Assembly: GCA_015478675.1 (NCBI GenBank)
Contig: JADMIH010000037.1
Location: forward strand, 1-27,500
Origin: Chloroflexota bacterium
Lineage (GTDB): Bacteria > Chloroflexota > Chloroflexia > QHBQ01 > JADMIH01
Reading direction: 5' to 3'
DNA length: 27,500 nucleotides
The notes under the pieces are model-generated. The model searched no databases. It was not told where the DNA came from and saw nothing but the letters and a program-made list of their open reading frames with translations. Positions 6,213 through 26,670 of this stretch are shown in pieces. How positions within the stretch are numbered: position 1 is the first letter of the stretch; each line of letters opens with the position of its first letter. The position numbers and the translations under genes were made by a program.

Positions 6213-6892
6213 GTAATCGTATTACCGAGCTAACATCAGCCATATCGGTGGTGCCCGCTATCCCAACGGGTCCATTGACCAACGGCCACAAACCGCCTCT
6301 CTATGGTGATGGCAAGGAACCGGAGCCTTCTACCTACCTTGACTTGCTGCCTGCCATTTACTCAATGGATACCTTTGTTGGCCGCTTCTTGCGGATCTTT
6401 GAGGAAGTGCTCGACCCGATCTCTGTGATGGTTGATAACCAGCCTTACTACTTCGATCCTATGACCGCGCCGCTCGACTTGCTCGAATATATGGCGATAT
6501 GGGTTGATCTTGACGAAGAGGGTGAGGACTGGCCCCTGCCCAAGAGGCGCGCGCTGGTCGCCGCCACCGCCGCGCTCTACCGTCTGCGTGGCACAAAAGC
6601 AGGGCTGAAACGTCACCTCGGCATCTATGCAGGAGGAGCGCCTTTTATACAGGAGCGCACTAACGGCTTCCGATTGGACCCTGATGCGCGCCTGGGGCTG
6701 AACACTTCGATAGGCGAGGAGCGCCAGCACGTCTTTACTGTCACCATCGCCGTGCCTGATCCCAGGAAACTGGACACTGACACACTGAAATCCATAATCG
6801 AGGCTGATAAGCCTGTTGAGACGAGCTACATATTGCGCGTCGTACAACTCGATATAAACAAAGAGAAGAAAAGAGGCAGGGCCGCAAGATAA
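6209..6892 (+). CDS. P2 gpI-type phage tail protein (Afp12-like)
   Basis: This 227-residue protein has the marks of the short tail protein I family found in CIS baseplates: TYLDLLPAIYSMD, GRFLRIFEEVLDPI and DNQPYYFDPMTAPLDLLEYM in the first half, then the RRALVAATAALYRLRGTKAG helix-turn segment and a C-terminal ferredoxin-like piece. In related machines it bridges the J-protein wedge and peripheral baseplate parts such as fibres. It starts inside the stop region of the J gene (four-base overlap). The C-terminus ends in a basic tail (KEKKRGRAAR). The first 40 residues or so are a Pro-rich lead that differs in length among family members. Confidence 0.93.
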   Translation: MSNRITELTSAISVVPAIPTGPLTNGHKPPLYGDGKEPEPSTYLDLLPAIYSMDTFVGRFLRIFEEVLDPISVMVDNQPYYFDPMTAPLDLLEYMAIWVDLDEEGEDWPLPKRRALVAATAALYRLRGTKAGLKRHLGIYAGGAPFIQERTNGFRLDPDARLGLNTSIGEERQHVFTVTIAVPDPRKLDTDTLKSIIEADKPVETSYILRVVQLDINKEKKRGRAAR

Positions 6893-6962
6893 GCCCATTC
6901 ACACCGTTGTTTTAGATTAGCGGGCCGGGCGAATGCTTAGGCCCCCCGCCACTCAGAGAACC

Positions 6963-6969
6963 AGAGGAG
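6963..6969 (+). promoter_or_regulatory. Ribosome binding site selecting the ATG at 6978
   Basis: AGAGGAG lies 8 bases before the ATG at 6978. The frame contains an earlier ATG at 6933, but that one has only GC-rich sequence without a purine-rich site before it, and the extra 15 residues show no family similarity. The start at 6978 is therefore preferred. Confidence 0.75.
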
Positions 6970-6977
6970 TTATACAA

Positions 6978-8141
6978 ATGGACAACGCCGTTCCCCGTGT
7001 ACAACTAAAGCGGGTGAACCCGTTTATGGGCCTGATGATTGACGCAGGCACCTGGCGCGACTCGCATGATTACCATCGCGTTGCCGGGCAAGCGCACGCG
7101 CTCGCCATGCATGGCTGGGGTATAGTGACGGGCCTTGAGGTAGATGCTGCCGACCCTGCGGATCGCTCAGTTTGGATCAGGCCGGGCGTGGCGGTTGACC
7201 CCGAAGGGCGGCTGATTATCGTTGCTCAGCCCTTCCGCTACCAGATCACCAGTCAGGAAGCGGGACAGAGCTACCTTGTGCTGATGTTCCGTGAGATACC
7301 GACCGAGAATGTGATCTCCATCGAAGACGGCGCTGAGCAGCCGAGCAGGATCCTCGAAGCCTACGCTATCTACGAGCGTGACCGCCTCCCCGACCAGGCG
7401 CACGTTGAACTGGCGCGCATCCAACAAAGCGCAGGTAAGAAAGCGATCAAGGATGCTGCCGATCCGGTCTACCCCAAGCAAGATGAGATTGATACGCGCT
7501 ACCGTGAACAGGCCGCTATTCGCCCAGGCCTGCGCACTACCCTCGGCATCTGGAAACCCGCAGATGTAGGCTCATCTCTTGTCCAGCACTTGCCAGGGCC
7601 AAAGCACCTCTTTGACGAGCTGAGCGCCAGCGTTGATTGGCGATTACGCCGCCGCGACCAGCCGCAGGGCACGGGTGACGAGCCTCTCGATTGCGATCTG
7701 TTGCTGATGCCTGTAAGCCCCAACACTAGCTTCAGCGACCCTGAAAAGAAGCAGCTGAAAGCCTTTCTTGATGGTGGTGGTGTGATGCTGGTAGAAGGCT
7801 GCGCCGCTGGGGGCGGGGACGTGCAGAAAGTATTTGCCCTCCTCGCGCAGGCCGTGGGTCGCAAGCCTCAGCCCGTGCAGCGCCAGCACCCTCTGCTTAC
7901 TGCGCGCCATATCTTCGCAGCGCCTCCCCCGGGGGCTGCCGCCGGCCAGCTTATCGAAGCCGACGGACTGCTCCTCAGCACCGCGGATTACACATGCGCC
8001 TGGAATGGCGGCACGCCTGACAAAGCGATGAACCGCGGTGACATACGAACAGCCGTAGAGTTCGCGGAAAACATGTTAACTTACGCACTGGTGCGCCGGG
8101 GCAATGCCCAGCGTGCTCAGCGGAGCGATAGGAGGGGCTAA
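6978..8141 (+). CDS. Baseplate-associated protein fused to a DUF4159-like domain
   Basis: Translated from 6978 this is a 387-residue protein with two parts. Residues about 8-180 resemble a family met in CIS loci whose core reads HGWGIVTGLEV, then WIRPGVAVDPEGRLII; here this follows NPFMGLMIDAGTWRDSHDYH. From about residue 185 the protein changes to an alpha/beta domain that resembles DUF4159 (class I glutamine-amidotransferase-like fold): CDLLLMPVSPNTSFSD, then KKQLKAFLDGGGVMLVEG, QRQHPLL, and a C-terminal WNGGTP. DUF4159 has no established biochemical function. The cysteine in VEGCAAGGG and the QHP triplet are the only polar candidates I can point to. The gene lies between the baseplate wedge genes and the membrane-protein block, and its stop is 3 bases before the next ATG. 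It could link baseplate and membrane proteins, which is inference. Confidence 0.72.
   Translation: MDNAVPRVQLKRVNPFMGLMIDAGTWRDSHDYHRVAGQAHALAMHGWGIVTGLEVDAADPADRSVWIRPGVAVDPEGRLIIVAQPFRYQITSQEAGQSYLVLMFREIPTENVISIEDGAEQPSRILEAYAIYERDRLPDQAHVELARIQQSAGKKAIKDAADPVYPKQDEIDTRYREQAAIRPGLRTTLGIWKPADVGSSLVQHLPGPKHLFDELSASVDWRLRRRDQPQGTGDEPLDCDLLLMPVSPNTSFSDPEKKQLKAFLDGGGVMLVEGCAAGGGDVQKVFALLAQAVGRKPQPVQRQHPLLTARHIFAAPPPGAAAGQLIEADGLLLSTADYTCAWNGGTPDKAMNRGDIRTAVEFAENMLTYALVRRGNAQRAQRSDRRG
8131..8137 (+). promoter_or_regulatory. Strong ribosome binding site inside the upstream gene
   Basis: GGAGGGG sits 7 bases before the ATG at 8145 and lies within the final codons of the DUF4159-like gene, whose stop is at 8139-8141. 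The tight arrangement indicates coupled translation of the baseplate-associated protein and the first Ig-transmembrane protein. Confidence 0.7.
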
Positions 8142-8144
8142 GAT

Positions 8145-9788
8145 ATGTCTACTCGCGTTGGCCTAACCACAGATGCGAAGTCAGTAGATATGGTCGCTGG
8201 CGGGGTCGGTTTAGTCCAGATCACGGTAGTGAACATGGGCAGAGTTGTTGACGCCTTCGACTTGCAAGTGCGTGGATTAGACTCAAGCTGGTACACACTG
8301 ACACCGGAGCGAGTGTCGCTCTTCCCGGGGGCCAAAGCAGCCGCCGTCTTGCAGCTACGCGCACCTGCCGCTTCCCTGGCGAACGCGGGCACCTACACGG
8401 CAGAAGTTATTGCGACCTCCCGCGACGCCCCAACCGAATCAACCTCTGTCGCTGTGCAGGTTGTGATAGCTGCGCAAAGCGAGCTTTCCATTGCTATCGA
8501 ACCTCAGCGTATTGTAGCCCGCCGCGCAACATTCACATCCACTGTGAGCAACGACGGCAATGTGGCTCGCGAAGTGGTGCTGCGGCCCACCGATGCTGAA
8601 GAGATGCTCCTCTTCTCCTTTGGCGCAGCCCGGCTTGCGCGGCTAAACGACCGTGCCCGTGCAGGGGGGAGTCCTGCAGCGCCGCAAACCAACATCTCGG
8701 TTGGCCGCCCTGTCGGAGAAAGCGTCCCTTCCGCAGCAACATCGGTGACAACCCAATGGAGCGCATCAAGCACGGAGGCTTCACAGGGGTACCTGACGCT
8801 CACCGTCCCACCCGCCAGCCGCGTGGACCTACCTCTCAGTGTGCAGACCAGGCGTCGCATCTGGACGGGGCGCGATAAACCGTTCAAGTTCGAAGTAGCC
8901 GCGACGCCGCCGGGGGTAGAATGGGAGGCGAGCGAAGCACGCAAAGCCAGCGCGGAACTGCTCTACCACCCGATATTCGCCTGGTGGTCGGCCATGCCCC
9001 TCCTTATGCGCCGCGTAGTGGGGGTACTACTGCCGCTGGTAATTCTGGGGCTGCTCCTTTATTTGCTGTTGAGGCCGCAGAACCAGCCGAAGATAGCGGC
9101 AAATACGTTGAATGTCGGCGCTACCCAGACCGCGCTGGCGTCAGCCGCGAGCGCCAGCCAAACTGCTGCCGCGCTCGCTCTGGCCGGCAGCGCGAGTGGC
9201 ACGCAAACGGCACTGGCGCTGCTATCTAGCGCAGGCGCGACACAGACCGCAATTGCTGCCGCGAATACCGGCGGTACGCCCGGAACCGGGCTGGCCGGGC
9301 CGCTACGTATAGTGCGCTTCGACTTCGGCACGGGCGCTGACGGCGGAGTGCAGGTTTCGTGGAATGTAACCAATGCTCTGACGGTCACACTCAACAATAA
9401 GACGGTGCCCATTTCGGGCACCCAGGCTGTGGATACCACCTCTGACCAGGCGCTGGTCCTCTCGGCAACCAACGGCAAGGACGTGGTTACACGCAGCGGC
9501 GGCATTGTGCTGATGCGCCCCCCTGAGATTAAGAGCTTCGTGGCGGAGCCTGCTGAGACCTGTCCCGGCTGCGAAGTGACGTTGCGCTGGAACACAGTGC
9601 GCTCGGAACAAATAATGGTTGACGGCACGCCCGTACCCAATCAGGCAACTGCGGGCAGCATGAAGGTAAAGCCTTCTGATACCACCGAATACTTGCTGAC
9701 AGCAAAGAGTGGCCTGGGACAGGTCGAGAGTAGTGTTACTGTGAACGTAAAGCCCGGCTTACCGACGCCATCACCTGCCGCGCCGTAG
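8145..9788 (+). CDS. Ig-like single-pass membrane protein 1 (547 aa)
   Basis: There is no signal peptide. Residues 1-105 and about 110-270 form Ig-like domains of the COG1470/NEW3 type (VVDAFDLQVRGLDSSWYTL, SLFPGAK, then IEPQRIVARR and RRRIWTGRDKPFKF). A hydrophobic helix at about 291-310 follows Arg289-Arg290. After it comes an Ala-rich linker with ATQTALA-like units (about 320-375), then two short Ig-like domains to the C-terminus; the second opens with a CPGC pair. The N-terminal part contains no cysteine. An N-in/C-out topology fits both the Arg pair and the cysteine placement. Ig domains on the cytoplasmic side could hold a CIS baseplate, which is inference. It is the first of three paralogues in a row; the next two share the same N-terminal plan. 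Confidence 0.8.
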   Translation: MSTRVGLTTDAKSVDMVAGGVGLVQITVVNMGRVVDAFDLQVRGLDSSWYTLTPERVSLFPGAKAAAVLQLRAPAASLANAGTYTAEVIATSRDAPTESTSVAVQVVIAAQSELSIAIEPQRIVARRATFTSTVSNDGNVAREVVLRPTDAEEMLLFSFGAARLARLNDRARAGGSPAAPQTNISVGRPVGESVPSAATSVTTQWSASSTEASQGYLTLTVPPASRVDLPLSVQTRRRIWTGRDKPFKFEVAATPPGVEWEASEARKASAELLYHPIFAWWSAMPLLMRRVVGVLLPLVILGLLLYLLLRPQNQPKIAANTLNVGATQTALASAASASQTAAALALAGSASGTQTALALLSSAGATQTAIAAANTGGTPGTGLAGPLRIVRFDFGTGADGGVQVSWNVTNALTVTLNNKTVPISGTQAVDTTSDQALVLSATNGKDVVTRSGGIVLMRPPEIKSFVAEPAETCPGCEVTLRWNTVRSEQIMVDGTPVPNQATAGSMKVKPSDTTEYLLTAKSGLGQVESSVTVNVKPGLPTPSPAAP

Positions 9789-9850
9789 AGAATTGTTTAC
9801 CGGTAGAGCGCCCGGCCGCGGGATGCGAATGCTAACCGCTAAGGAGACAG

Positions 9851-12800
9851 ATGCCATCTCAAATTGAAATACAACTAGACAGAAGCAGCCTCAATCTGGC
9901 CCCTGGGGAAGCATCTGAAGTGCGCGCAACGCTCACCAATGCAGGTAGTGTTGTTGACGCCTACGTATTACAAGTCGCGGGCATTGATCCGGCGTGGTAT
10001 ACGTTGAGCGCCAACGAAGTACGGCTCTTCCCTGGGCAATCATCTCAGGTTGTGCTAAAGCTCAAGCCACAGGGGACGCAAGCGCTGGCGGGTGCGCATG
10101 GCTTCAGCCTGATTGCTACCTCGCGTGATAACCCCGCCGTACGTGCGGTTGCATCGGGAATGGTGACGCTGGCGGCAGTAGGAGGCGCGGGGGCCATCTC
10201 CCTTGACCTTGAGCCGAAGCGGGTGCGTGGTCGCAAAGGTGCTTACGCCATAACTCTTGCCAATGCAGGTAATGCTGCGCTGCCCCTCGTGCTCCTCGCC
10301 ACCGACCCTGAAGAGGCCCTATCTTACACCTTCGGCACATCCCGCCCTGCGTCTGAGGCCCAGACACCACAAGCCCAGGGCAGCGCATCGGGCGCGTCGC
10401 AGCCCGTTGTGATGGGAAATCGGGTAGCCTCAGCTAACGGCAGCATCGAGCATGAATTGGAGATACCGCCGGGCGCCGCGATAGTAATGCCGATGGAGGT
10501 AACTCCACGCAAGCGAATATGGACCGGGCGTGAGCGCTCCTTCGCTGTAACTGTCGGCACCCACCCGCCGGGAGTTGAATGGGAGGTTACCGAGGCTCAG
10601 CGAGTACAAGGCGAACTTGTCTATAAGCCTGTTTTTGCGGCTCTTGCCGCGCTGCCTCTCACGCTACGCCGCGCCCTGGCGATAGTAGTCCCTCTGGCAG
10701 TGCTGGCCCTCCTCCTTTTCCTCCTTTTCAAGCCTAACGGCAGCAACATGCTTGCCGCGAACGCGCGCGCCACGCAAACGGCGCAAGCTGCGGCTGCATC
10801 GGCTGCCGCGCAGACAGCACAGGCCAGGGCCAATGCCGCGAGCGGTAACTCCGCAACCCAGACAGCGCGGGCTCTTGCTAGCAACGCCTCCGCCTCGCAA
10901 ACCGCGCTGGCCCTGGCAACTCTTGGCAGTGCAGGATCTGCCGGGTCTCCATCAGTCCAGGATTTCGTGCTGGTAGTACCCACGCCGAAGGCTGGGCAGG
11001 GCGGCGCGCCTGTGAGCGACACACCCAATCTGCAATATAACGTTAGTTCGGCGCGTGATGTGCGTGTAGATCAATCCTCGTCATCAGCCAATTTACCCGG
11101 CCTCGAAACCTCCACATTGCTTGGCTACCAGCTTGTGGCAACGGGCACCAACGGCGTTACTACAGACACGCTGACAGTGCTGCTGATACGCCCGGCGGCG
11201 ATCAACAGCTTCACGGCAAGCGCGACCTCTATTAGCGCGGGCCAGAGTACTGTACTTAAGTGGCAGGTGAAAGGCGCTAAATCTCTAACTCTCGATGGCT
11301 CCGCAGTTGCCCTCACTCCTACCGGCGAGGGAAGTGTTAGTGTTACACCGGGCAGCACGCACCGTTATATACTCTGCGCCACGAATGTCGTGGGCACCAT
11401 TTGTACCTCGGTCAAGATAACGGTTCAGGGTGGCTCTACCGCTACAACGGGTCCCGCAACGGCCACTAAAACCGCCGGCATCGCGTCCGCTTCAGCCACT
11501 CTCACACCTGTCGCTACTCCCTGCCAGGTAGACAACTACCAGATAGGCCAGGGTACAGAGACAGCTATTATCAGTGGTACCACTGATATAGGTCTAAATT
11601 GTGACAACTGCACGACGACTATAGACTTACCCTTCCAGTTCAGGCTCTACGACAAGTCCTTTACGACGGCTATAGTTGGCTCAAACGGCACACTGGGCTT
11701 TGTAGCAAACGCCAACACTATCACCAACACCGCCCTCACAGCGCAAGGTTTCAATTATGCAATCATGCCGCAGTGGGACGATCTCACCACGTCAGGAGCA
11801 GGGCTTGGCGTCTTTACCTCGATTTCCGGGAGCGCACCCAACCGTATCTTCAATCTGGAATGGCGTGCTCGTTATCCGAACGGCGGCATCGCCAACTTTG
11901 AGGTGCGCCTATTTGAGAACTCGCCTTTGCAGCAATTTGACGTAGTCTATGGCCGTGTAGATGATGGAGGTAAAAGCAGCACGGTGGGGGTGGAGAAAAC
12001 AGCAGGAAATAACTTCACCCAGTACGAATACAACAGCAGCGCTATTGATAGCGGCCTCGCGCTGAGTTTCACCTTGACTTGCGGCAATGGTGGCGCGGTT
12101 GATACGAGTGGCATCAATGTGCCGTCGAAGAACGCTTGTCTTCTGGGAAGAATTACCAATCCCATTGCTAACTCAACTTACCTTGCCGACAAGATCACTG
12201 TCCAAGCGGGCACGACAGTGCACTGGGCGAATATTGACAATAAGATACACACAACCACAAGCGTGAACGGCCTGTGGGATAGTGGCGCCCTAGCCCGGAA
12301 CGAAGGCTTTGACTACACATTCACTACTCCCGGAACCTACACATACAGGTCAACTACAGACAGCAACCTGAGCGGAACAGTGGTGGTAGTAAGCTCGTGC
12401 GCCTCTCCCACCGCGACGCAGACCGAGACGGCAACCCAGACGTTGGTTGCCACTCTGCTTCCGACAGGCACAGCTTCCGAGACATCGACCTCTATGCCGA
12501 CTGCTACCGGCACGGTGCCGACCGGCACCGCCACATCTACTTCAACGGCTCGGCCCAACACAGCTACCGTTACAGTAACCCAGGCGCCGACTACCAGGCC
12601 GCCCAGCGGTGGCCGCCCCACTCGGCCACCCGCGCCACCACCTCCGCCGTCCACACCGACCTGCCAACCAGGTTCGGGCTATTCTATCAGCACTTCCAGT
12701 GGGGCGACTATAGTGGCAGGGACAACAGATACAGGCAACCATTGTGACGACTGCGCGAACACTATCACTTTGCCCTTCCCGGTCCAACTTTATGACCAAA

Positions 12801-15800
12801 CCTTCAACGCTGCCACTCTTAGCTCAAATGGCAACATACAGTTCGCCAGTAGTGACGCTACGAGCAACAACCAGTGCTTGCCTACCTCCGCCCTCAACTA
12901 CGCAATAGCGCCCTATTGGGATGACCTCACCACAAACTGCTCAGGCTGCGGCATCTACACATCGGTTACAGGCACCGCGCCTAATCGCACCTTGAATGTC
13001 GAGTGGCGCGCGCAACAGGCAGGCGCGGCTACGCCTTCGACTGTGCCCGCGCAGCGTGACGCGCCACCTACAAAGCAAAAAGAGGTAGCACATTCCCCAA
13101 GCCGAGTCGTCAGCGACCTGACGATCCCGGGCTCTCCCATCTCCGTCATCGTGCGCGACAGCGGCGCTTACGGCGTCTATCGCAACAACGTTCAGCAGTT
13201 TTTCGGGGGCTATGCTGAGGGCACATATCTGTGGGTGCAAGCCCCTGGTGGCGCGGTTCAGGTCTGGGGACCGGAGTACGTACCCGCAGGGCGGCAGCCA
13301 AATACGTACACACCTATCAGCCACATGCTGGCAGGCGACGGCAGTGCCAGTAACCCCTATGTAGTGACAACGGTGCTCGGTGTGGGTACTACAGGTCTGC
13401 AACTGACGCAGCGCGTCAGCTACACTAACGGCGACGAGTACATTCGCAACGACTGGTCAATCACCAACACCGGCACAACCAATTACCCCGGTCTGCGTTT
13501 GTTCCATGCAGCTGATCTTTACACTGCAGGCAATGACGCAGGCTACGGCTATTACGACCCGGCGACCGGCGCAATCGGCGGTTACTCGCAGGACCGCTCG
13601 CTCTATCAGATCTTCTCGCCCATTACCCCAGCTTCTAACTATGAGGAAAATGGCTACAGCACAATTTGGAGCGATATTGGCGACACAGCCGGACCCGGCA
13701 CCGGCTTTCGTGATCTTTACTTCCCCGACCAGTATTTTGACAACGGCGCGGGTCTCGAATGGCAGTTCAATGTTGGACCGCGAGGCTCCGCAACCCAGGC
13801 AGACTTCGTTAGCTTCTCCAACAGGCCTATTATTCCGACGAGCGGTGTCAACTTTGAGGTGCAACTGCACGAAAACTCGGCAAACAAAGAATTTGATGTG
13901 ACCTACGGTCAGGGGAATGGGAATGGCGACAGCGCCACTGTTGGAGTGCAGGCGGGTACCGGCAGCAGCATATCACAGCTTGAGTGTAACACAGGCGGCA
14001 TCGTTCCTGGCCTGCGCCTGGCTTTTGTACAGACCTCCTGCGGTACTCCGCTGACCACAGTGACGACCACACCTACGCCTTCTACCACCACCACTGTCAC
14101 CAGCACTCCTATTCGCACGAGCACGGCCACGATGGTGCCGACGGGTACGCCCACTTCCACAGGGACCTCTACAGCCACCAGCACCCTCACAGGCACGCCT
14201 ACTCTCACCTCCACTTCCACCGATACCGCCAGCCCTACGCCTACGCCGACGCAGTGTGTGATTGACAACTATCAGATCAGCCAATCGACCGGGAATATCA
14301 CGCCGGGGCAGAACGATATTGGTAACCATTGCAACGACTGCGCGACGGGGCTGAACCTGCCCTTCCCTGTGCGCGTCTACGGCGAGACCTACAACTCGCT
14401 TAATGTGAGCTCCAATGGCAACTTGCAGTTCAATAGCGCCAACCCTAATGCCAACAACAGCTGCTTACCGGCGGCTGGTTTTAGCACCTCTATCTTCCCC
14501 TATTGGGACGACCTTGACACGAGCAGCATAGGTGTGCGCGGAGCGCCAGGTGGCGTGATCCCAGGCGTCTATACTTCCGTAACCGGCGTAGCGCCAAACC
14601 GAATCTTCAACATCGAGTGGCGTGCGTACGCCGCCAACGGCGCTCAGGCAAGCAAGCCTGCCGCTACCCCTACGGTGCCAGTCAAGGTGCCGCAGGCTTC
14701 CGGTACGCTCACTGTAACAGCCACTCCCACCCAGTGTGCCACGGGTGGCGCACCGTGGACCTTTGTCGCACCCTTGCCCACGCAGGTGGCTAACAACGCG
14801 GGCGCAGGTGACAGCACTAACTTCTACTCAGTTGGAGGCTTCCAGTCTGATGGGCAACCGACCCCCTCCGTCGTAGGCGCGAATACATATCAGTACAACG
14901 CCGCCTCCAATAGCTGGAACACAATGGCGCCCGTGCCCGCGGCAGGGCAATCGATGTCGGTGGTAGACACAGGCGGTAAGGTGTACGCCTTCGGAGGCAA
15001 CGATACCGACATCTATCGCAACAACACTCAAATCTTCGATCCAGCTACAGGCCAGTGGAGCCAGGGCGCCCCTATGCCAGATGCCCGCTTCGGCACCTAC
15101 GCGGGCGCGTACAACGGCAAGATTTTCGTGGCCGGAGGCAAGCAGTCGCTCTTTGGCTTCGCCGATGGCCGAACTTACGAGTATGACATCCAGGCAAACA
15201 GCTACACTACACCCACGACCATGACCCGGCCAAACTCCCAGGGCGCTTATGTGACGATGGGCCAGTACTTGTACACTTTTGGTGGCGACAGCGGCGGCAA
15301 GGGTAGCAACATTAATGCAGAAGCGAACCGCCTCGACATGTCAAACCCCGGCCTCGGCTGGACGAATGTTATGACGATGCCACTCGCTCTTAGAGGCGCA
15401 TCGGCATCGGTAGTAGGCAACAAGATATGGATCTTCGGCGGGCAGGACTCAAACTTTAACTCCACATTTAACACCTTTATCTACGACCCTGCCCTTGATA
15501 CCTACACAAATGGACCGCCCATGAACATGGCGCGCTCTGACTTCGCCGGTGGCAACGTCGCCGACAGGTCGATTGCCGCGGGCGGAAATACGCCCAATCT
15601 CATGACCAATACCGCAGAGACGTCAAGCTTCATCCCGTGCCCCACCAGCACCGCCACCGCCTCACCAACTTCTACTCTCACCAATACCTCAACCGCGACG
15701 CCAACGTCCACGAGCACCAATACCCCTACGCCTACACCCTCGCCCGTCTACGTCAACTTTGAAGTGCAGCTATACGAAAACTCGGTCACTTCGCCCGCAC

Positions 15801-17383
15801 AGGCTTTTAACATTATCTATGGGTCAACAGGCACCGGAAGCGGCGTCACTGTCGGCGCACAGAAGGATGCCGGCGCCCGGATAGCTCAGTATGAGTGCAA
15901 CACAGGCGGCCTGAGAACAGGCCTCGAGCTGACCTTTGCCTTGCCACCCTGCGGCAGTGTTACACCCTCAACCACCGCCACCGCGAGCGTTACGGTGACA
16001 GTAACACCTTCGAGGACCAGCACAGTTACCCCGACCTTTACTCCTACCGCTACTGCCACCTTGCCCGCGTGCGCGACAACAAACAGCTCGGATGTTCCTC
16101 TCCCCGTGGGTATCTTTGGTGTAGTTACTTCGACGCTAACAATCCAACAGCCGGGGCTTATCAACTCGATCCGAGTTGTTAATCTCGCTTTAGATAAAGT
16201 TACCCAGGACACTCCTGATAACGTGCGTGCTACGCTGATATCGCCCAGCGGATCTCAGGTTGTGCTGCTCGACTGGGCTTGTGGCACCGTGCCGTACACA
16301 GGCACTATGAGCGTTACCCTCGACGACGGTGCTCCTACGAACATAAACACGACCTACTGCAACCAGAACATAACAGGCAGCTACCGCCCCGACCCCGGCC
16401 CCCTGTCGAGCCTCAACGGACAGCAGGCACAAGGCACATGGCAGCTTCGCATAGAGACGCAAGCCAGCACCGCCCAGCTAAATAGCTGGGGCCTGGATAT
16501 ATGCTACCTGATCGGCGGCCAGCAACAGGGTACTCCAACAGCGACGCCTCTCTTGCAGACCCCAAGCGTGACCGCAACACGGGCAATCGGAATCGGCCAG
16601 CGCCCTACCTCCACTTCTACAACGACCCCTACCTTCACAGCCAGCGCGACTGCCGCCCCAACCGCCCCGCCTGCTGCCCTCACCGCTCGCCCTGCGCGAA
16701 CGCCCACGGCAGGCGTTGGTGATGCTCCCACCCGTACACCCGCCACTCGTCCAACGAGCGGTATAGTGCCTGCGCCGGTTGGAACAGCGCCGCCGCCGTT
16801 GCCTGAGTGCAGCACCTGGGCTTCCACACGTTCTTCCACACTCCCCGCCGCAGGCGGTATAATCAGATCAACTGTGAACGTGCCTCGGCAGGGTGCGATG
16901 GGCAGCATCCAGGTAAGCGTGGACATAGAGAAAGACGCCCCCGGCGCGATAGTAGGCGGGTACCTCGTCTCGCCGAGCGGCGCACAACTACAGCTATTCA
17001 ACTGGTCGTGCGGCTCTTCTCTGAACAGCCGTGGTGGTGCGCGCATGAACGCTACCTTTGCCGATTCCGCGCCCCGCCGCATTGATCAGGCATATTGCGA
17101 CGCAAATATATCGGGCACATTCAGGCCCGATCCTGATGCGCTTGCTGCCTTGCAGGGGGCTGATGCTGCGGGTACCTGGACGCTGGTGCTACAGACAAGC
17201 GGACCCGCCCCGGCCAGTGGGGGTAAGCTGAACGGCTGGAGCTTGCAAATCTGCTTCGCCAATGGCGCTGCCCAGGGGACAGGCAATGGGTTGCCCGTTG
17301 ATATCGCCTCCGAGGTAGTCGTCTCCTCTGTGCCGCAGCAGGAGCTTCTAAATGCTGAACGCTCCTTACCTCCTGACGGGTAG
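9851..17383 (+). CDS. Giant membrane-anchored mosaic protein with Ig, NIDO-like, kelch and P-domain-like modules (2510 aa)
   Basis: The first 300 residues copy the plan of the upstream paralogue: two cysteine-free Ig-like domains (GIDPAWYTL, RRIWTGRERSF is RKRIWTGRERSF here) and a transmembrane helix at about 275-295 after Arg273-Arg274. Then follow an Ala-rich ATQTA linker, an Ig-like domain (about 445-535), NIDO-like module 1 (558-744), a cupredoxin-like domain (about 755-845), NIDO-like module 2 (938-1397) interrupted by a foreign beta domain, NIDO-like module 3 (1469-2034) interrupted by a six-blade kelch propeller, and two P-domain-like modules (2074-2218 and 2320-2468). Thr/Pro/Ser linkers separate the modules, and most modules begin and end with a cysteine. 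No sortase motif or catalytic protease is visible. The ATG at 9851 has AAGGAG at 9841-9846. An anchored adhesive or receptor-like ectodomain standing in for a tail fibre is inference. Confidence 0.82.
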   Translation: MPSQIEIQLDRSSLNLAPGEASEVRATLTNAGSVVDAYVLQVAGIDPAWYTLSANEVRLFPGQSSQVVLKLKPQGTQALAGAHGFSLIATSRDNPAVRAVASGMVTLAAVGGAGAISLDLEPKRVRGRKGAYAITLANAGNAALPLVLLATDPEEALSYTFGTSRPASEAQTPQAQGSASGASQPVVMGNRVASANGSIEHELEIPPGAAIVMPMEVTPRKRIWTGRERSFAVTVGTHPPGVEWEVTEAQRVQGELVYKPVFAALAALPLTLRRALAIVVPLAVLALLLFLLFKPNGSNMLAANARATQTAQAAAASAAAQTAQARANAASGNSATQTARALASNASASQTALALATLGSAGSAGSPSVQDFVLVVPTPKAGQGGAPVSDTPNLQYNVSSARDVRVDQSSSSANLPGLETSTLLGYQLVATGTNGVTTDTLTVLLIRPAAINSFTASATSISAGQSTVLKWQVKGAKSLTLDGSAVALTPTGEGSVSVTPGSTHRYILCATNVVGTICTSVKITVQGGSTATTGPATATKTAGIASASATLTPVATPCQVDNYQIGQGTETAIISGTTDIGLNCDNCTTTIDLPFQFRLYDKSFTTAIVGSNGTLGFVANANTITNTALTAQGFNYAIMPQWDDLTTSGAGLGVFTSISGSAPNRIFNLEWRARYPNGGIANFEVRLFENSPLQQFDVVYGRVDDGGKSSTVGVEKTAGNNFTQYEYNSSAIDSGLALSFTLTCGNGGAVDTSGINVPSKNACLLGRITNPIANSTYLADKITVQAGTTVHWANIDNKIHTTTSVNGLWDSGALARNEGFDYTFTTPGTYTYRSTTDSNLSGTVVVVSSCASPTATQTETATQTLVATLLPTGTASETSTSMPTATGTVPTGTATSTSTARPNTATVTVTQAPTTRPPSGGRPTRPPAPPPPPSTPTCQPGSGYSISTSSGATIVAGTTDTGNHCDDCANTITLPFPVQLYDQTFNAATLSSNGNIQFASSDATSNNQCLPTSALNYAIAPYWDDLTTNCSGCGIYTSVTGTAPNRTLNVEWRAQQAGAATPSTVPAQRDAPPTKQKEVAHSPSRVVSDLTIPGSPISVIVRDSGAYGVYRNNVQQFFGGYAEGTYLWVQAPGGAVQVWGPEYVPAGRQPNTYTPISHMLAGDGSASNPYVVTTVLGVGTTGLQLTQRVSYTNGDEYIRNDWSITNTGTTNYPGLRLFHAADLYTAGNDAGYGYYDPATGAIGGYSQDRSLYQIFSPITPASNYEENGYSTIWSDIGDTAGPGTGFRDLYFPDQYFDNGAGLEWQFNVGPRGSATQADFVSFSNRPIIPTSGVNFEVQLHENSANKEFDVTYGQGNGNGDSATVGVQAGTGSSISQLECNTGGIVPGLRLAFVQTSCGTPLTTVTTTPTPSTTTTVTSTPIRTSTATMVPTGTPTSTGTSTATSTLTGTPTLTSTSTDTASPTPTPTQCVIDNYQISQSTGNITPGQNDIGNHCNDCATGLNLPFPVRVYGETYNSLNVSSNGNLQFNSANPNANNSCLPAAGFSTSIFPYWDDLDTSSIGVRGAPGGVIPGVYTSVTGVAPNRIFNIEWRAYAANGAQASKPAATPTVPVKVPQASGTLTVTATPTQCATGGAPWTFVAPLPTQVANNAGAGDSTNFYSVGGFQSDGQPTPSVVGANTYQYNAASNSWNTMAPVPAAGQSMSVVDTGGKVYAFGGNDTDIYRNNTQIFDPATGQWSQGAPMPDARFGTYAGAYNGKIFVAGGKQSLFGFADGRTYEYDIQANSYTTPTTMTRPNSQGAYVTMGQYLYTFGGDSGGKGSNINAEANRLDMSNPGLGWTNVMTMPLALRGASASVVGNKIWIFGGQDSNFNSTFNTFIYDPALDTYTNGPPMNMARSDFAGGNVADRSIAAGGNTPNLMTNTAETSSFIPCPTSTATASPTSTLTNTSTATPTSTSTNTPTPTPSPVYVNFEVQLYENSVTSPAQAFNIIYGSTGTGSGVTVGAQKDAGARIAQYECNTGGLRTGLELTFALPPCGSVTPSTTATASVTVTVTPSRTSTVTPTFTPTATATLPACATTNSSDVPLPVGIFGVVTSTLTIQQPGLINSIRVVNLALDKVTQDTPDNVRATLISPSGSQVVLLDWACGTVPYTGTMSVTLDDGAPTNINTTYCNQNITGSYRPDPGPLSSLNGQQAQGTWQLRIETQASTAQLNSWGLDICYLIGGQQQGTPTATPLLQTPSVTATRAIGIGQRPTSTSTTTPTFTASATAAPTAPPAALTARPARTPTAGVGDAPTRTPATRPTSGIVPAPVGTAPPPLPECSTWASTRSSTLPAAGGIIRSTVNVPRQGAMGSIQVSVDIEKDAPGAIVGGYLVSPSGAQLQLFNWSCGSSLNSRGGARMNATFADSAPRRIDQAYCDANISGTFRPDPDALAALQGADAAGTWTLVLQTSGPAPASGGKLNGWSLQICFANGAAQGTGNGLPVDIASEVVVSSVPQQELLNAERSLPPDG
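11522..12082 (+). repeat. NIDO-like module 1 (uninterrupted copy) in the giant protein
   Basis: Residues 558-744. It runs from Cys to Cys and contains NCDNC, LPFQFRLYDKSF, the SNGTLGF strand, MPQWDDL, NRIFNLEWRA and then, after only eight residues (674-681), NFEVRLFENS. It is the reference copy for the two split copies downstream. The resemblance to nidogen NIDO domains is by motif order (LPF, SNG, P.WDDL), without a search. Confidence 0.7.
12083..12400 (+). other. Cupredoxin-like domain with lost copper ligands
   Basis: Residues about 755-850 follow a plastocyanin-like pattern: ITVQAGTTVHWANID, His800 in a KIHTTTS segment, LWDSG, and a closing TTPGTYTYR strand. The usual copper loop after PGTY carries Cys, His and Met. 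Here the matching positions are Ser834, Asp837 and Leu840, so only the first His remains. A structural, non-copper role is likely. Confidence 0.65.
12401..12661 (+). repeat. Thr/Pro/Ser-rich linker in the giant protein
   Basis: Residues 851-937 are almost entirely Thr, Ala, Pro and Ser, with TATQTETATQ-type units and a final stretch of prolines. Comparable linkers lie at 14042-14254, 15641-15754, 15953-16069 and about 16520-16807. They look like extended, possibly glycosylated spacers between folded ectodomain modules. Confidence 0.85.
12662..14041 (+). repeat. NIDO-like module 2, split by a 279-residue insertion
   Basis: Residues 938-1397. The first half (GNHCDDC, LPFPVQLYDQTF, APYWDDL, NVEWRA at 1049-1054) and second half (VNFEVQLHENS from 1333) match module 1. 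Between them lies a beta-rich domain (about 1055-1332) containing VIVRDSGAYGVYRNN, GTTGLQLTQRVSY, ND-WSITNTG and LFHAADLYTAGNDAGYGYYD, of unknown function. Confidence 0.75.
14255..15952 (+). repeat. NIDO-like module 3, split by a kelch beta-propeller
   Basis: Residues 1469-2034. The first half ends at NIEWRA (1587-1592) and the second resumes at VNFEVQLYENS (1968). The 375 residues between hold Thr/Pro linkers and, at 1629-1930, a kelch propeller. Six blades can be counted by their glycine pairs (SVGG, AFGG, VAGG, TFGG, IFGG, AAGG), each followed by a YxY or FDPATGQW-like strand. The propeller is bounded by Cys1629 and Cys1930. Confidence 0.78.
16070..17254 (+). repeat. Two P-domain-like beta-sandwich modules
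   Basis: Residues 2074-2218 and 2320-2468 are paralogous. Each opens with a Cys, has LISPSG or LVSPSG, an inner WACG or WSCG pair, a YC followed by N-I-(T/S)-G and RPDP, then GTWQLRI or GTWTLVL, LNSWGL or LNGWSL, and closes on IC. This is the pattern of proprotein-convertase P domains, but no subtilisin-like protease is present in the chain. Confidence 0.72.
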
Positions 17384-17390
17384 TGGCGAG

Positions 17391-17408
17391 CAGGTAAATG
17401 TGTACCTG
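17391..17408. other. Short inverted repeat after the giant gene
   Basis: CAGGTA and TACCTG are separated by six bases in the 64-base gap before the third Ig-transmembrane gene. There is no following T-run, so it is not a convincing intrinsic terminator. It may only be a weak mRNA hairpin. Confidence 0.35.
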
Positions 17409-17447
17409 GAAAAGTAGCAACAACAGATAGTAGATTGGAGAGTAACT

Positions 17448-18560
17448 ATGATACAACAGTCACCGGCGTCTGCTGAACCTATCGTGATAAATCTCACGCC
17501 ACCTGAGATCAAGGTGGTCGCCGGGGCCGAACCGGTCGAGATGACCGCGAATGTGCGCAACGCAGGTAACACGGTTGACCAATACAGCATCGAGATTGAG
17601 AACCTCGATCCAAGCTGGTACACCATCGGCGTGCAAAGCGTCTCCCTTTTCCCGGGCGACAGCGCTCCGATCCCTATCAAATTGCACCCGCCCAAGGGGA
17701 GCAACACGCGGGCGGGGCATTACACTTTCGTGGTGCGGGCACGCTCACACGCCGACCCCACGCTCGTAGGTGTTACCAAAGGCGTTGTGCAGGTCGGCTC
17801 TTACGCCAACTTTCAGATAGACCTTGCACCTAAGAGAGTGACGGCATACCGGGGTAAATATCGCCTGAGCATCACAAACGGTGGCAATGGCGAAGCTGCA
17901 ATTGAGCTTTCGGGCCGCGACGCCGAGTCTAACCTGGTTTACAACTTCAAGAATGCCACTCCAACTGTGCAGCCGGGCACCAAACTGGTAGTCCCCGTCA
18001 CTGTGAAGCCGCGAGGTCTACACCTTATCGGCGAGGGTGAACGCCACCAGTTTGGCATAATAGCCATGCCCGTAGACGGCGAGGAGAAGGACGCGAAGGA
18101 AGTGCAAGGCGAGCTTGTGCATAAACCGCCTATACGCAACTGGAAGAAACCGCTGATCGCTCTCGTCGTCCTCTTCCTCCTGCTAGCTGTGCTGCTTAGC
18201 AAACCAAACTTCTGCTCTCTACCGCAGCCTATAGGTGGTTGGGCTTGTAACTTTGGCAGTGCCATCGCAGGGATGTTCCGTCAAACGAGAGCCGAGAAAG
18301 TGGCTTGCGCATCAGGCCCCGGCTTCAATGAGGTGCGCCTCAAGTACGAGAACGTGGTTGGCAAATGCGCTGAAGACGAATGGTACGATGGCCTGGGTAA
18401 CTCGCACCAACGCACCACCACAGGTCAGTTGATGTTCATCAAGCAGTCGCAGCAGATCTACTTTTTCGGGGACGACACCAAGATCTGGACCTTTGAAAGT
18501 TGCAGCCCGAAAGGCACCTTTAACAACTGCGACGTGGTCGAAGTGAAGAAGACACAGTAG
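17448..18560 (+). CDS. Ig-like single-pass membrane protein 3 (370 aa)
   Basis: This is the shortest of the three paralogues. Residues 1-110 and 115-225 are Ig-like domains with the shared signatures (AGNTVDQYSIEIENLDPSWY, SLFPGDS, then APKRVTAYRGKYRLSI); they contain no cysteine. A transmembrane helix lies at about 236-252 after Lys233-Lys234. The remaining 115 residues carry six cysteines (FCSL, WACN, KVACAS, GKCAED, ESCSP, NNCDV) and no Thr-rich linker. They form a small domain I do not recognise, with the FGDDTKIWTFESC strand near its end. The ATG at 17448 has GGAG seven bases upstream. The ATPase gene follows within seven bases, so the three membrane proteins are embedded in the CIS operon and not adjacent by chance. 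Confidence 0.8.
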   Translation: MIQQSPASAEPIVINLTPPEIKVVAGAEPVEMTANVRNAGNTVDQYSIEIENLDPSWYTIGVQSVSLFPGDSAPIPIKLHPPKGSNTRAGHYTFVVRARSHADPTLVGVTKGVVQVGSYANFQIDLAPKRVTAYRGKYRLSITNGGNGEAAIELSGRDAESNLVYNFKNATPTVQPGTKLVVPVTVKPRGLHLIGEGERHQFGIIAMPVDGEEKDAKEVQGELVHKPPIRNWKKPLIALVVLFLLLAVLLSKPNFCSLPQPIGGWACNFGSAIAGMFRQTRAEKVACASGPGFNEVRLKYENVVGKCAEDEWYDGLGNSHQRTTTGQLMFIKQSQQIYFFGDDTKIWTFESCSPKGTFNNCDVVEVKKTQ

Positions 18561-18567
18561 GGAGTTG

Positions 18568-20817
18568 ATGCAACAACGTACCACCACAACAGTCACCAGG
18601 CCGGCGGAACGCTCCTCGATCATGGACGCTCTGCTGGCCGACCTGCGCCTCCTTGATGAGCGCCTCACATCGGCTATTGACCGGCTTAGAATGTCACAGG
18701 CCCCTGACACGGACCCGACGCAGCGTGGGCTCCTCATCGAAGAAAGCGATGTGGATAGCTGGCTGGCAGGCCTCGGCCCCGCTAAGACAGACAAGAGCTA
18801 TGTGGAGGTAGCCGCAGGTCTCACTGCGCATCAAGAGAGCCGCCTGTCAACATTGGGCAAGGTCTTCGGCCTCAGCCGTCTGGAGCAAGCCATCATATTG
18901 ACGGCCCTTGCCCCTGAGCTAGACCTGGCATATGGCAACCTCTACAGCTACGTACAGGACGATGTTACAAAGAAGTACTGCACCCTGGACCTTGTGGTGG
19001 CGCTCTGGTGCCCCGGCTTACCTGACAAGCTGGCCGCTCGGCTTCTGCTCAGCCCTGAGGCTTCACTACGAAGCAATTTGCTGGTCAATCTCGATGAGAG
19101 CGCACATTCCCATGCGCCCTTGCTGGCGCGCCCCTTCTCTCTGGACCCGCGCATTGCCTCCTACCTTCTAGGGCAGGATGACCCCGACCCGGGGCTGCGA
19201 GGTGCGCTGACTGTTGCGCGTGCGGTGCACAGGACAGGCGACTGGGCCGTCGGCTGGCCTCAAATGGCCTCATTGCAGCGAATGGCACGCTCCGCGTTGG
19301 CGGGGTCGCGTCACGAGACGCGCGCCAGTGAAGGGGAGTCCGGTAAAAATCCAGCGAGTGGTCTGGCCCTATGGATGCGCGGGCCTGAGCGTCAGGCAAA
19401 ATCTGAAGTGGCTCATCAACTGGCAGCCTCTCTCGACGTTCCTCTACTAACTGTTGATACGCCCATGCTCATGGCCGCTGTGAGCGACACCCGGCAGGCT
19501 CTGCACCGCGCCTTGCGTGAGGCACGCCTGCAAGGTGGTATCCTCTTGTGGCAAGATGCGGATGCCATGCTCGCCAGGCACGACGACGGCGCGCCCGATC
19601 CTTCGGCCGAAACAGGCCGCCTGCTAGCACAGTGGCGCGGCTGCGTCCTCTTCGATCTTCGAGCCTCAGCGCCTATTTACGTGAACGGCGGCCCTCTTAC
19701 AGTGGAGCTTGACTTTCCAGCACCCACAAATGAGCAGCGCCGCGCCCTGTGGGAGGACGCCCTCGGTGGGGCAGGCAACCTCGCGGCTGATGTAGACTTG
19801 CCACTCCTCTCCGGCGCGTTCAGACTCACCGGCGAGCAGATCGAAGCGGCGGCAGGGAGCGCACGCCATTCCGCAACCTGGCGGGGGGCTCTCTCAGGCA
19901 GCGATGAACAAATCACCATGCGTGATCTCCTCTCTGCTTGTCGCGCTCATTCGAACCAGGGCCTCGGCGCTCTTTCGCGCAAGGTTACGCCGCGTTATAC
20001 ATGGGCCGACCTCGTTCTGCCCGCCGACAGGCTGGCACAGCTCAAAGAGATGTGTCACCATGTGCGCTACGGCCCAATGGTCTTCGAGCAGTGGGGCTTT
20101 GACCGCAAGCTGGCAGGTGGGAAGGGTCTCAACGTCCTTTTTGCCGGGCACCCAGGCACAGGCAAAACTATGGCTGCGGAAGTGGTGGCGACTGACCTCG
20201 GTCTTGAGATTTATAAGGTTGACCTGGCGGGGGTGGTTAGCAAATACATAGGCGAGACCGAAAAGAACCTGGAAAAGATCTTCCGCGAAGGGCAAACAAG
20301 CAACGCTATACTTTTCTTTGATGAGGCAGACTCGCTCTTTGGCAAGAGATCAGCGGTGAAGGATAGCCACGACCGCTACGCCAATATAGAAACTAGCTAC
20401 TTGCTGCAACGTATGGAGGAGTACGATGGCATCGTGATACTCGCCACCAACCTGCGCAAGAACATGGACGACGCCTTCGTCCGCCGTCTGCACGGTGCGA
20501 TAGAGTTCCCAATGCCAGAAGAACCGGACCGGATCGAAATCTGGCAGCGTACATTCCCTGTTGAAGCTCCACTTTCACCTGATGCTGACCTGGCCTTTCT
20601 CGCCAGGCAGTTCAAGCTAAGCGGTGGTAACATCAAGAATATTATATTAGAAGCAGCTTTCTTCGCAGCAGAAGCGGGCACATCAATCAATATGGCGCAC
20701 CTTGTGCGAGCCACCCGCCGCGAGCACCAGAAGATAGGCAAGCTAATCGCCGACAGCGATTTCGGGCCCTACGCCCACCTGAGCAGGTCATCCGAAAGCG
20801 CACAAGCGCCCAGTTAA
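18568..20817 (+). CDS. AAA+ ATPase of the CIS (Afp15-like)
   Basis: This 749-residue protein has the layout of the CIS ATPase. An N-terminal helical/winged-helix part (LSRLEQAIILTALAPELDLA) is followed by a degenerate first AAA module (about 265-430) lacking a proper P-loop, then an intact second AAA module. That module has Walker A GHPGTGKT at 527-534, Walker B LFFDEAD with Asp585-Glu586, sensor-1 ILATN and the RR pair of an arginine finger. The pore-loop region reads VVSKYIGETEKNLEKIF. Afp15-type ATPases are needed for particle assembly or maturation; the substrate is not known. A TTG at 18565 directly precedes the ATG at 18568, and the ATG is preferred. The GGAG at 18561-18564 is rather close to it, and the gap to the previous stop is only 7 bases. 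Confidence 0.93.
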   Translation: MQQRTTTTVTRPAERSSIMDALLADLRLLDERLTSAIDRLRMSQAPDTDPTQRGLLIEESDVDSWLAGLGPAKTDKSYVEVAAGLTAHQESRLSTLGKVFGLSRLEQAIILTALAPELDLAYGNLYSYVQDDVTKKYCTLDLVVALWCPGLPDKLAARLLLSPEASLRSNLLVNLDESAHSHAPLLARPFSLDPRIASYLLGQDDPDPGLRGALTVARAVHRTGDWAVGWPQMASLQRMARSALAGSRHETRASEGESGKNPASGLALWMRGPERQAKSEVAHQLAASLDVPLLTVDTPMLMAAVSDTRQALHRALREARLQGGILLWQDADAMLARHDDGAPDPSAETGRLLAQWRGCVLFDLRASAPIYVNGGPLTVELDFPAPTNEQRRALWEDALGGAGNLAADVDLPLLSGAFRLTGEQIEAAAGSARHSATWRGALSGSDEQITMRDLLSACRAHSNQGLGALSRKVTPRYTWADLVLPADRLAQLKEMCHHVRYGPMVFEQWGFDRKLAGGKGLNVLFAGHPGTGKTMAAEVVATDLGLEIYKVDLAGVVSKYIGETEKNLEKIFREGQTSNAILFFDEADSLFGKRSAVKDSHDRYANIETSYLLQRMEEYDGIVILATNLRKNMDDAFVRRLHGAIEFPMPEEPDRIEIWQRTFPVEAPLSPDADLAFLARQFKLSGGNIKNIILEAAFFAAEAGTSINMAHLVRATRREHQKIGKLIADSDFGPYAHLSRSSESAQAPS

Positions 20818-21420: not shown

Positions 21421-21429
21421 TGTCGTTCT

Positions 21430-21456
21430 CCGTTGCTTGCCTGAGGCAAGCAACGG
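21430..21456. other. Perfect 12-bp stem hairpin between two signature genes
   Basis: CCGTTGCTTGCC, a TGA loop and GGCAAGCAACGG form a perfect inverted repeat only 10 bases after the stop at 21418-21420. No T-run follows, so classical termination is not supported. The 3' arm ends 19 bases before the ATG at 21476. It could protect or process the mRNA, or tune expression of the downstream gene. Confidence 0.7.
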
Positions 21457-21475
21457 CAAGGGATCGCGTGGTTAC

Positions 21476-22246: not shown

Positions 22247-22325
22247 GCAATCATCGGTGGAATATAGGGAGGCATAGGGCGCTTCAGCTAGACGTTCGGC
22301 AAACCTCTGCTTAACAACGTGAGTA

Positions 22326-22331
22326 TATAAT
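22326..22331 (+). promoter_or_regulatory. Possible -10 element before the nuclease payload gene
   Basis: A TATAAT lies in the 123-base gap upstream of the ATG at 22370, in a locally AT-richer stretch. No convincing -35 hexamer is found at the right distance, so this is a weak promoter candidate that might give the large payload gene its own transcript. Confidence 0.3.
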
Positions 22332-22369
22332 TAGGGCGAAACAACAGCTTTAGCGACCAGGGTAAGTGC

Positions 22370-26638: not shown

Positions 26639-26639
26639 A

Positions 26640-26656: not shown

Positions 26657-26670
26657 GGCGCAACTTGTAG

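Follow-up and report, generated by a model that had tools for sequence, protein, structure and literature searches.

Ig-domain membrane proteins as candidate docking receptors of a Streptomyces-like contractile injection system in Chloroflexota

A stretch of 27,500 nucleotides from a Chloroflexota bacterium (contig JADMIH010000037.1; hereafter, the window) contains a gene cluster for a contractile injection system (CIS). Three consecutive genes of this cluster, located between the baseplate genes and a gene for an AAA+ ATPase, encode paralogous proteins, which we named A, B and C, and which combine an N-terminal pair of immunoglobulin (Ig)-like domains with a single transmembrane (TM) helix, an architecture denoted Ig-TM below. 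We propose, with moderate confidence, that these proteins are recruitable membrane docking or trigger receptors of a Streptomyces-like CIS. Indirect support for a receptor role, in Chloroflexota and Deinococcota, comes from the position of the family in the slot that follows the baseplate genes, from its complementarity with CisA, and from the kinase and FHA domains present in relatives. CisA is the one known factor by which a cytoplasmic CIS reaches, and fires at, the membrane of the cell that produced it; for loci of the Roseiflexus, Deinococcus and window types, the Ig-TM family now provides candidates, and the pairing of kinase and FHA domains suggests a testable mechanism.

In the mechanism that we propose, A, B and C, as single-pass membrane proteins, would have a cytoplasmic Ig pair and a C-terminal part directed to the envelope or the outside. 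CIS particles would assemble free in the cytoplasm; the ectodomain would read a signal, upon which the cytoplasmic part would engage the outer baseplate (Cis12/Cis13), and the engaged baseplate would be brought to the cell's own membrane for firing. The three genes lie in the slot that CisA holds in Streptomyces. The Cis names of the window genes (Cis7, Cis8, Cis9, Cis11, Cis12 and Cis13) are given by analogy, and publications are identified by PMC number.

Architecture and predicted topology

A note written previously on this DNA (the earlier note) had reported three consecutive genes between the baseplate genes and the AAA+ gene (18565-20817), a common N-terminal Ig pair in their products, and one membrane helix following a basic pair; all of this was confirmed. 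The open reading frames (ORFs) of A (8145-9788), B (9851-17383) and C (17448-18560) are all on the + strand and encode proteins of 547, 2510 and 370 amino acids, respectively. BLASTP comparisons showed that the three are paralogues, far beyond chance (A-B, E 6e-65; A-C, E 6e-22; B-C, E 1e-30), and each contains a single strongly hydrophobic segment preceded by a basic pair (MRR/291 in A, LRR/275 in B and WKK/235 in C). The AlphaFold models of A (mean predicted local distance difference test score, pLDDT, 74.6; 20 sequences) and C (mean pLDDT 89.7; 41 sequences) both contain two tandem Ig-like sandwiches and one helix, followed by separate domains in A and a separate domain in C.

The assignment of A is based on its ORF, paralogy, AlphaFold model and family alignments. 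Its Ig pair, delimited by model strands, covers residues 5-274 (8157-8966), and its membrane helix, placed by hydropathy and model, covers residues 286-309 (9000-9071). A QTA-rich disordered stalk (residues 311-383, pLDDT <50) precedes two more strand-rich Ig-like domains in the model (residues 388-535; 9306-9749). For C, identified by its ORF, homologues and AlphaFold model, the model places the Ig pair, which matches HYDIN-type and FixG_C Ig families, at residues 12-225 (17481-18122), and a small C-terminal domain at residues 262-370 (18231-18557); its helix (residues 233-250; 18144-18197) follows from hydropathy and model. The helix of B, predicted by hydropathy, spans residues 275-293 (10673-10729), and its very large C-terminal part contains Kelch repeats, two P_proprotein stretches and T/P-rich linkers. 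This part of B (within 9851-17383) also contains a repeated module around a YWDDL motif and a cupredoxin-like stretch, which together with the Kelch repeats give it an adhesin-like look.

The sequence motifs that the earlier note had described as shared are similar in the three proteins without being identical: GLDSSWYTL, SLFPG, PQRI and RRIWTG in A; GIDPAWYTL, RLFPG, PKRV and KRIWTG in B; and NLDPSWYTI, SLFPG and PKRV in C, where the RIWTG motif is absent. Likewise, the C-terminal parts, described as divergent, do differ overall, but the BLASTP alignment of A and B runs into these parts, up to residue 538 of A and residue 528 of B. Protein searches yielded at least 20 homologues of A, at least eight of B (1630-2510 amino acids) and 67 matches for C, fragments and distant relatives included; some of the relatives are labelled Chloroflexia or Chloroflexota. 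Among relatives of A, B and C there are six pairs in which the longest contig has one and the same length, so that these proteins may travel together. The family of C conserves its Ig part better than its ectodomain (65% versus 35% identity; Ig higher in 817 of 820 pairs).

Structure comparisons with the models (Foldseek and VIA-align) retrieved a broad assortment of Ig folds, ciliary, chaperone and transglutaminase ones among them, and are uninformative about function; the VIA-align rows for C span mostly residues 7-227. When solved structures were searched with the C family, three matches came up, which were Ig-type regions in glycosidases (E 0.06-0.1). In NCBIfam, A had zero matches and C one, under the cut-off. 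An LGFP-like fold, guessed from the consensus for the C-terminal domain of C, found no Pfam match among 41 family members at E values up to 1.

Within their first 45 residues, A, B and C reach maximum hydropathies of 1.45, 1.03 and 0.92, versus 2.93, 3.09 and 2.42 at the helix; judged from hydropathy alone, these low N-terminal values (<=1.45) mean that no signal peptide is apparent in any of the three. WxLIP of Enterococcus is an exported protein whose Ig pair is outside, and the window proteins differ from it in having no N-terminal segment above a hydropathy of 1.45. All 40 cysteines of the three proteins (2 in A, 32 in B and 6 in C, the latter at residues 256-361) are located C-terminal of the helix. 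A helix follows the start of the Ig pair in 72 of the 77 distinct proteins that have such a pair, and 66 have exactly one. In relatives, kinase and FHA domains are located N-terminal of the helix, whereas PASTA and peptidoglycan-binding domains (in two relatives), as well as Kelch and P_proprotein domains, are on its C-terminal side. This distribution argues indirectly for a cytoplasmic Ig pair, and we infer that the C-terminal part points toward the envelope or the outside. The Ig domains may grip the baseplate and the ectodomains may bind targets, as the earlier note had proposed.

CIS co-occurrence and the slot after the baseplate

The tube, spike, gp25, J, Cis12 and AAA+ genes are present in one cluster, which is the Streptomyces-type (IId-like) gene set. 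Among solved structures, the CIS of S. coelicolor (9GTP/9GTR, the entries named in PMC12237407) ranks first for baseplate protein J (Cis11; 4251-6212; 9gtp_1K, E 5e-161; TIGR02243, E 2e-141), for the Tail_P2_I baseplate wedge (Cis12; 6209-6892; 9gtp_E, E 2.6e-19) and for the VgrG-like spike (Cis8; 1809-3704; 9gtr_q, E 1.2e-49; Phage_base_V, E 6e-26), all on the + strand. The runners-up for J reach E 7e-8 or weaker, with Afp11 at 1.5e-6. Judged by gene set and baseplate likeness, the window CIS is therefore IId-like and akin to the cytoplasmic CIS of Streptomyces, and not to the antifeeding prophage and Photorhabdus virulence cassette (Afp/PVC) systems that the earlier note had chosen for comparison.

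We then searched the same 400 Chloroflexota genomes with one profile built from the three N-terminal parts and with the CIS tube family, at a threshold of E 1e-10. Both were found in 53 genomes, only Ig-TM in 11, only the tube in eight and neither in 328 (Fisher p 3e-46). The tube is thus present in 53 of the 64 genomes with Ig-TM versus 8 of the 336 without it, and the co-occurrence that the earlier note had suggested checking across Chloroflexota is borne out. As genomes share kinship, the Fisher value overstates independence; operon position is free of this problem. At most five candidates per genome were scored, which makes the numbers of Ig-TM genes per genome lower bounds, and one match is not always one separate gene; for genomes already in the tables, some additional fragments with E weaker than about 1e-7 were omitted, which does not affect the counts at E 1e-10. 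Out of 100 Ig-TM matches, 56 are no more than 30 kb away from a tube gene, 29 are on other contigs of tube-positive genomes and 15 in genomes without a strong tube match, so that the homologues do not lie mostly away from CIS, the outcome named in the earlier note as fatal to its idea. A J gene, weak in one case, is present in four of the 11 Ig-TM-only genomes. It is also present in seven of the eight tube-only genomes; five of these J genes are divergent or fragmented, and two are on contigs that end shortly after. In one of the latter cases (L085), Cis12 is followed by a kinase-FHA gene that extends to the end of the contig.

These numbers bear on the explanation that the three proteins are hitchhikers, i.e. 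general surface receptors that by chance are encoded in CIS loci. Ig-TM copies distant from the tube gene do exist, and FHA-less kinase-Ig-TM proteins are present in genomes where signs of a CIS are weak or absent (L064, L071 and L072). With the co-occurrence given above, and with Ig-TM genes near J in 20 of 30 loci and in five Deinococcus plasmid loci (see below), we regard this explanation as very improbable.

The gene that precedes A (6933-8141, + strand) encodes a protein with a Cis13-like N-half (CIS13_fam; NF053767, E 1.8e-18, 67 bits versus a cut-off of 370) and a DUF4159 C-half (E 1.5e-9), for which no solved-structure match was obtained at 0.1. Its highest 19-residue hydropathy is 1.03, i.e. 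it has no strongly hydrophobic segment. The start of A is 3 bases past the end of this gene; the three genes therefore stand after the fibre gene. The earlier note had assigned them to the fibre position itself, but they share this position with the Cis13-like gene that precedes them, which speaks against their replacing the fibre.

In Streptomyces, the fibre slot encodes CisA (Sco4242), a membrane protein that is required for firing and has been proposed to act as a sensor and docking factor (PMC12237407). The window proteins resemble CisA in occupying the same slot directly after the last baseplate gene and in having a long N-terminal part, one helix and a C-terminal domain that for CisA is on the envelope side. 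They differ in sequence type: slot proteins of the CisA type combine zinc ribbons with a disordered region and an F5/8C-type domain, whereas A, B and C have two Ig domains. Membership of the CisA family was considered and rejected, since a Pfam scan of A, B and C revealed neither zinc ribbons nor an F5/8C-type domain.

For a census of the slot, 42 loci with a J close to that of the window were taken from the Ig-TM and tube matches, i.e. not at random; 12 of these with less than 4 kb after J were excluded, leaving 30. One further locus, L004, had been dropped because it is the same place as L053. Ig-TM genes are located within 8 kb of J in 20 loci (in L001 on the opposite strand), CisA-like genes in six, both in none and neither in four. 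The last class consists of L092, with an FHA gene as well as a split gene that is weakly Ig-like and encodes a helix; L093, with a further large ORF that encodes a hydrophobic helix; L094, with a PP2C phosphatase with a helix; and L096, with nothing recognisable. The PP2C-type phosphatase gene (L094:9858-11687) is located shortly downstream of an FHA-bearing Cis12, beside a gene with an extracellular CIS (eCIS) core domain, and might form the reverse arm of a kinase module.

We call CisA-like those genes that share homology with the gene in the slot of Streptomyces sp. NBC_01324, in which CisA was identified by position and layout and not by its letters; this gene encodes zinc ribbons, a disordered part, a helix and an F5/8C-type domain, and it matches L104 by BLASTP with E 3e-21. 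The CisA-like profile was applied to 36 genomes and reached E <1e-30 in 11, every one in the CisA group. This level was reached in none of the 22 genomes with Ig-TM and without a visible CisA-type slot gene (best 2e-7, short pieces); at 1e-4 some match was found in 23 of the 36 genomes, those beyond the 11 being short or weak. The two families thus have complementary distributions in the slot. Close cisA homologues are reported to be absent from Roseiflexus (PMC12998442). In one CisA-group genome (L075), an Ig-TM gene on another contig has a zinc ribbon at its start and PASTA at its end.

Kinase and FHA domains in relatives

Three genomes (G169, G344 and G333) have a sheath with 95, 94 and 85% identity, respectively, to a published Roseiflexus castenholzii fragment, which matched 13 of 14 genomes, the others at 52% or less. 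Five Ig-pair genes each come after the baseplate genes in G169 and G344, and four in G333; all have FHA and most have kinase domains, and one Ig-pair gene per genome is without a helix. Their Cis12 has an FHA domain at the N-terminus. In G169, Pkinase has E 7e-51, and FHA has E 3e-12 in the receptor and 2e-16 in Cis12. A similar arrangement was found in Deinococcus. In all five plasmid loci examined, out of six records, a gene for a kinase-FHA-Ig-TM protein adjoins Cis12, which has an FHA domain in four and a broken frame in the fifth; the receptors are annotated as "FHA domain-containing serine/threonine-protein kinase" in two cases and as "protein kinase" in one. The broken Cis12 is on a Deinococcus grandis plasmid (L123:16168-22002), where the FHA and Tail_P2_I parts are in different frames; D. 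grandis produces CIS particles (PMC12998442), and this plasmid has a single kinase-FHA-Ig-TM gene. Another lineage, which a quick J tree places together with the window (7 rows, SH-aLRT 97), has two FHA domains on Ig-TM and the baseplate FHA on the Cis13/DUF4159 protein.

FHA traits were assigned manually in 32 of the 61 rows, with L092 (receptor split over two frames, weak Ig) and L123 scored as FHA-bearing. In these 32 loci, a baseplate FHA goes together with a receptor kinase/FHA in 18, 12 have neither, two have the receptor trait only and none the baseplate trait only. This covariation of baseplate FHA and receptor FHA is suggestive, not proven. The catalytic K/D/D residues are kept in 12 of 22 kinase domains of CIS loci and in 15 of 35 overall; with degenerate kinase domains, some receptors would act as pseudokinases. 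For these relatives, the proposed mechanism would include a receptor kinase and/or FHA domain before the Ig pair and an FHA domain on Cis12 or Cis13, so that docking there is probably phospho-regulated; the window type is without such a layer.

This arrangement resembles the threonine phosphorylation (PpkA-Fha) pathway of the type VI secretion system (T6SS), in that a transmembrane kinase and an FHA partner are paired on a contractile machine. The differences are that in the relatives FHA is an integral part of the receptor and of the baseplate wedge or fibre, that no T6SS membrane complex turned up in the relatives' loci, although no dedicated search was made, and that the window has no Ser/Thr kinase among A, B and C and no FHA match in these, Cis12 or Cis13. 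The FHA regions of the relatives match TagH far under its cut-off. Among the papers listed in searches of the open-access literature, we found none on a kinase/FHA module in a non-T6SS CIS. The words kinase and FHA are absent from the main text of PMC12998442; the accessible text of the paper on the Anabaena thylakoid CIS (tCIS; PMC8894136) mentions neither; that of Geller 2021 has no FHA and mentions histidine kinases and regulator-activating kinases; and in that of a Xenorhabdus paper, the FHA matches are of the haemagglutinin kind. We tentatively suggest, while inclining somewhat to doubt, that a second contractile lineage outside the T6SS independently evolved phospho-gated docking, in which (pseudo)kinase-FHA-Ig receptors, encoded within the CIS operon, would bind the FHA of Cis12 or Cis13 and recruit a cytoplasmic CIS to the membrane of its own cell, with A, B and C as a stripped-down, kinase-free form comprising three receptors for different cues from outside.

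Several further genes in such loci are of note. One paralogue of the Roseiflexus type (L047:3088-4938 and L045:15746-17839) has a kinase, FHA and the Ig pair, with no membrane helix or ectodomain detected. A large FHA protein with a helix and no match to the Ig profile is encoded within the Roseiflexus-type Ig-TM arrays (L044:3937-8229 and L045:9168-12926), and in one Roseiflexus-type locus a methyltransferase gene with PKMT-like domains (L043:10928-12589) is located between Cis12 and the Ig-TM array. On a CIS plasmid of the cyanobacterium Brasilonema (L126:1-1594), the region upstream of the tube gene contains a Ser/Thr kinase gene as well as an FHA gene that weakly matches a zinc ribbon. The FHA-less kinase-Ig pair-TM proteins of L064, L071 and L072 possibly represent an ancestral receptor kinase family.

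Streptomyces homologues, published particles and neighbouring genes

The Ig pair and helix of the window proteins are homologous to proteins of Streptomyces CIS clusters (hhalign, 99.7%, E 1.5e-26, and 99.1%, E 8e-19; a third with hidden Markov model E 1e-31). The homology was established with plasmid proteins as a proxy for Sco4256, matched to Sco4256-4258 by description; through this proxy the family shows the Sco4256-type features, i.e. a conserved Ig-like N-terminal part, one helix, a variable C-terminal part and Streptomyces homology. The family is therefore not new. Sco4256 has been described as a component of the CIS whose first domain is chaperone-like and is accompanied by a helix and, in about one third of homologues, by a third domain; homologues are found in type IId loci of Cyanobacteria and Chloroflexi (PMC10020575). 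The likeness to Sco4256-4258 covers paralogues in a Streptomyces-type CIS cluster, a chaperone-like (Ig-type fold) N-terminal part, one helix and a variable C-terminal part. The window proteins differ in being encoded after Cis13, in the far larger C-terminal part of B (Kelch, P_proprotein) and in having relatives with kinase/FHA domains, and the role published for Sco4256-4258 is that of effectors (PMC10066040).

This published role and a number of our own results weigh against the receptor proposal. On genetic grounds, Sco4256-4258 were called effectors loaded in the tube: about 85% of the tubes of the triple mutant are empty, versus about 97% filled in the wild type, and the triple deletion abolishes CIS-dependent death (PMC10066040). 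In tomograms of Roseiflexus, C. chliarophilus and D. aquatilis, particles were seen in the cytoplasm without attachment (PMC12998442). Among our results, lysine/arginine counts flanking the helix are higher on the N-terminal side in 28 proteins, equal in 24 and lower in 20, a spread that favours neither orientation. Identity in family A is 51% for the Ig part versus 49% for the ectodomain, with Ig higher in only 108 of 171 pairs. Seven Ig-TM genomes have neither tube nor J at E 1e-10. In L061, counted as Ig-TM in the slot census, a helix-less zinc-ribbon gene directly follows Cis12 and the Ig-TM gene is 7.5 kb off. CisA-group genomes also bear Ig-TM genes, near the AAA+ and eCIS-core genes (L074, L115, L116/L117, L118 and L119), so that Ig-TM is not a simple substitute for CisA. 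Domain scans of the window found no kinase or FHA match in A, B and C, and no FHA match in Cis12 and Cis13. The tree contains two changes in the baseplate trait and three in the receptor trait, which gives two independent pairs and a median p of 0.5 in a sign test. Finally, all five Deinococcus kinase domains are degenerate.

The alternative that follows the Streptomyces work, a reading absent from the earlier note, is that A, B and C are envelope-targeting effectors like Sco4256-4258, which would be loaded in the tube and released on firing, with the helix inserting in a membrane. The Streptomyces homologues fit the published description (one helix, similar N terminus, variable C terminus), there are three paralogues both in Streptomyces and in the window, and the empty tubes and the lack of CIS-dependent death in the triple mutant are direct evidence in Streptomyces. 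Sco4256-4258 are also toxic in E. coli (PMC10066040), but this does not discriminate, because CisA is toxic there too (PMC12237407). Fused kinase/FHA domains that are matched by a baseplate FHA suit a resident receptor better than cargo. Protein B, with its 2510 residues and Kelch propeller, would fit poorly when folded inside a tube, which also counts against effectors. Since the window proteins are in the slot and the window has its own, separate endonuclease cargo candidate (22370-26638), we place the receptor proposal above the effector alternative, which we consider rather unlikely. It is possible that both apply, Ig-TM proteins encoded beside the AAA+ gene being cargo and those in the slot receptors, and whether Sco4256-4258 are cargo or receptors is worth re-examination.

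The earlier note had regarded the three proteins as an anchoring module of a cell-attached CIS. Of this, membrane coupling in the CisA slot is what we favour; attachment as a lasting state does not agree with the free particles seen in tomograms of Roseiflexus and Deinococcota. In its strict form, this explanation would make A, B and C permanent anchors of an outward-firing, T6SS-like, cell-attached CIS, whose ectodomains grip neighbours or prey. The helix and slot of the three proteins are in line with it, as is the adhesin-like C-terminal part of B, of about 2200 residues. The Anabaena tCIS is anchored in this manner through a helix in Cis13 (PMC8894136), and it shares with the window a membrane link beside Cis12/Cis13; in the window, however, the Cis13-like protein is without a strongly hydrophobic segment, and the membrane link is in separate proteins. 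The baseplate is nearest to that of the cytoplasmic Streptomyces CIS, and kinase-type members occur in the Roseiflexus-type and Deinococcus loci that we examined, in strains other than those imaged. Permanent anchoring therefore appears improbable to us, and recruitable docking remains the reading that we prefer.

The remaining genes of the window, all on the + strand, complete the CIS cluster. The tube protein (Cis7-like; 1071-1730) matches CIS_tube (Pfam, E 1e-24) and has LysM (E 1e-7), and the gp25-like baseplate protein (Cis9; 3781-4179) matches GPW_gp25 (E 2e-26). A sheath gene is not among the genes of the 27,500-nt window. The AAA+ ATPase (18565-20817) has a winged-helix domain, as in other CIS loci, and genes continue past it to the end of the window, the final one with an eCIS core domain. 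One of these (22370-26638) encodes the probable cargo, a protein with a long helical-repeat region and Endonuclea_NS_2, whose layout is like that of Tme, a tape-measure-related nuclease effector of Streptomyces davawensis (PMC11126660). Four successive proteins encoded downstream of the ATPase gene (20890-27499), the last of which is also the eCIS core one, have in common an N-terminal motif, RGN...QQ..GN.A.QR..QR, which might be a loading tag.

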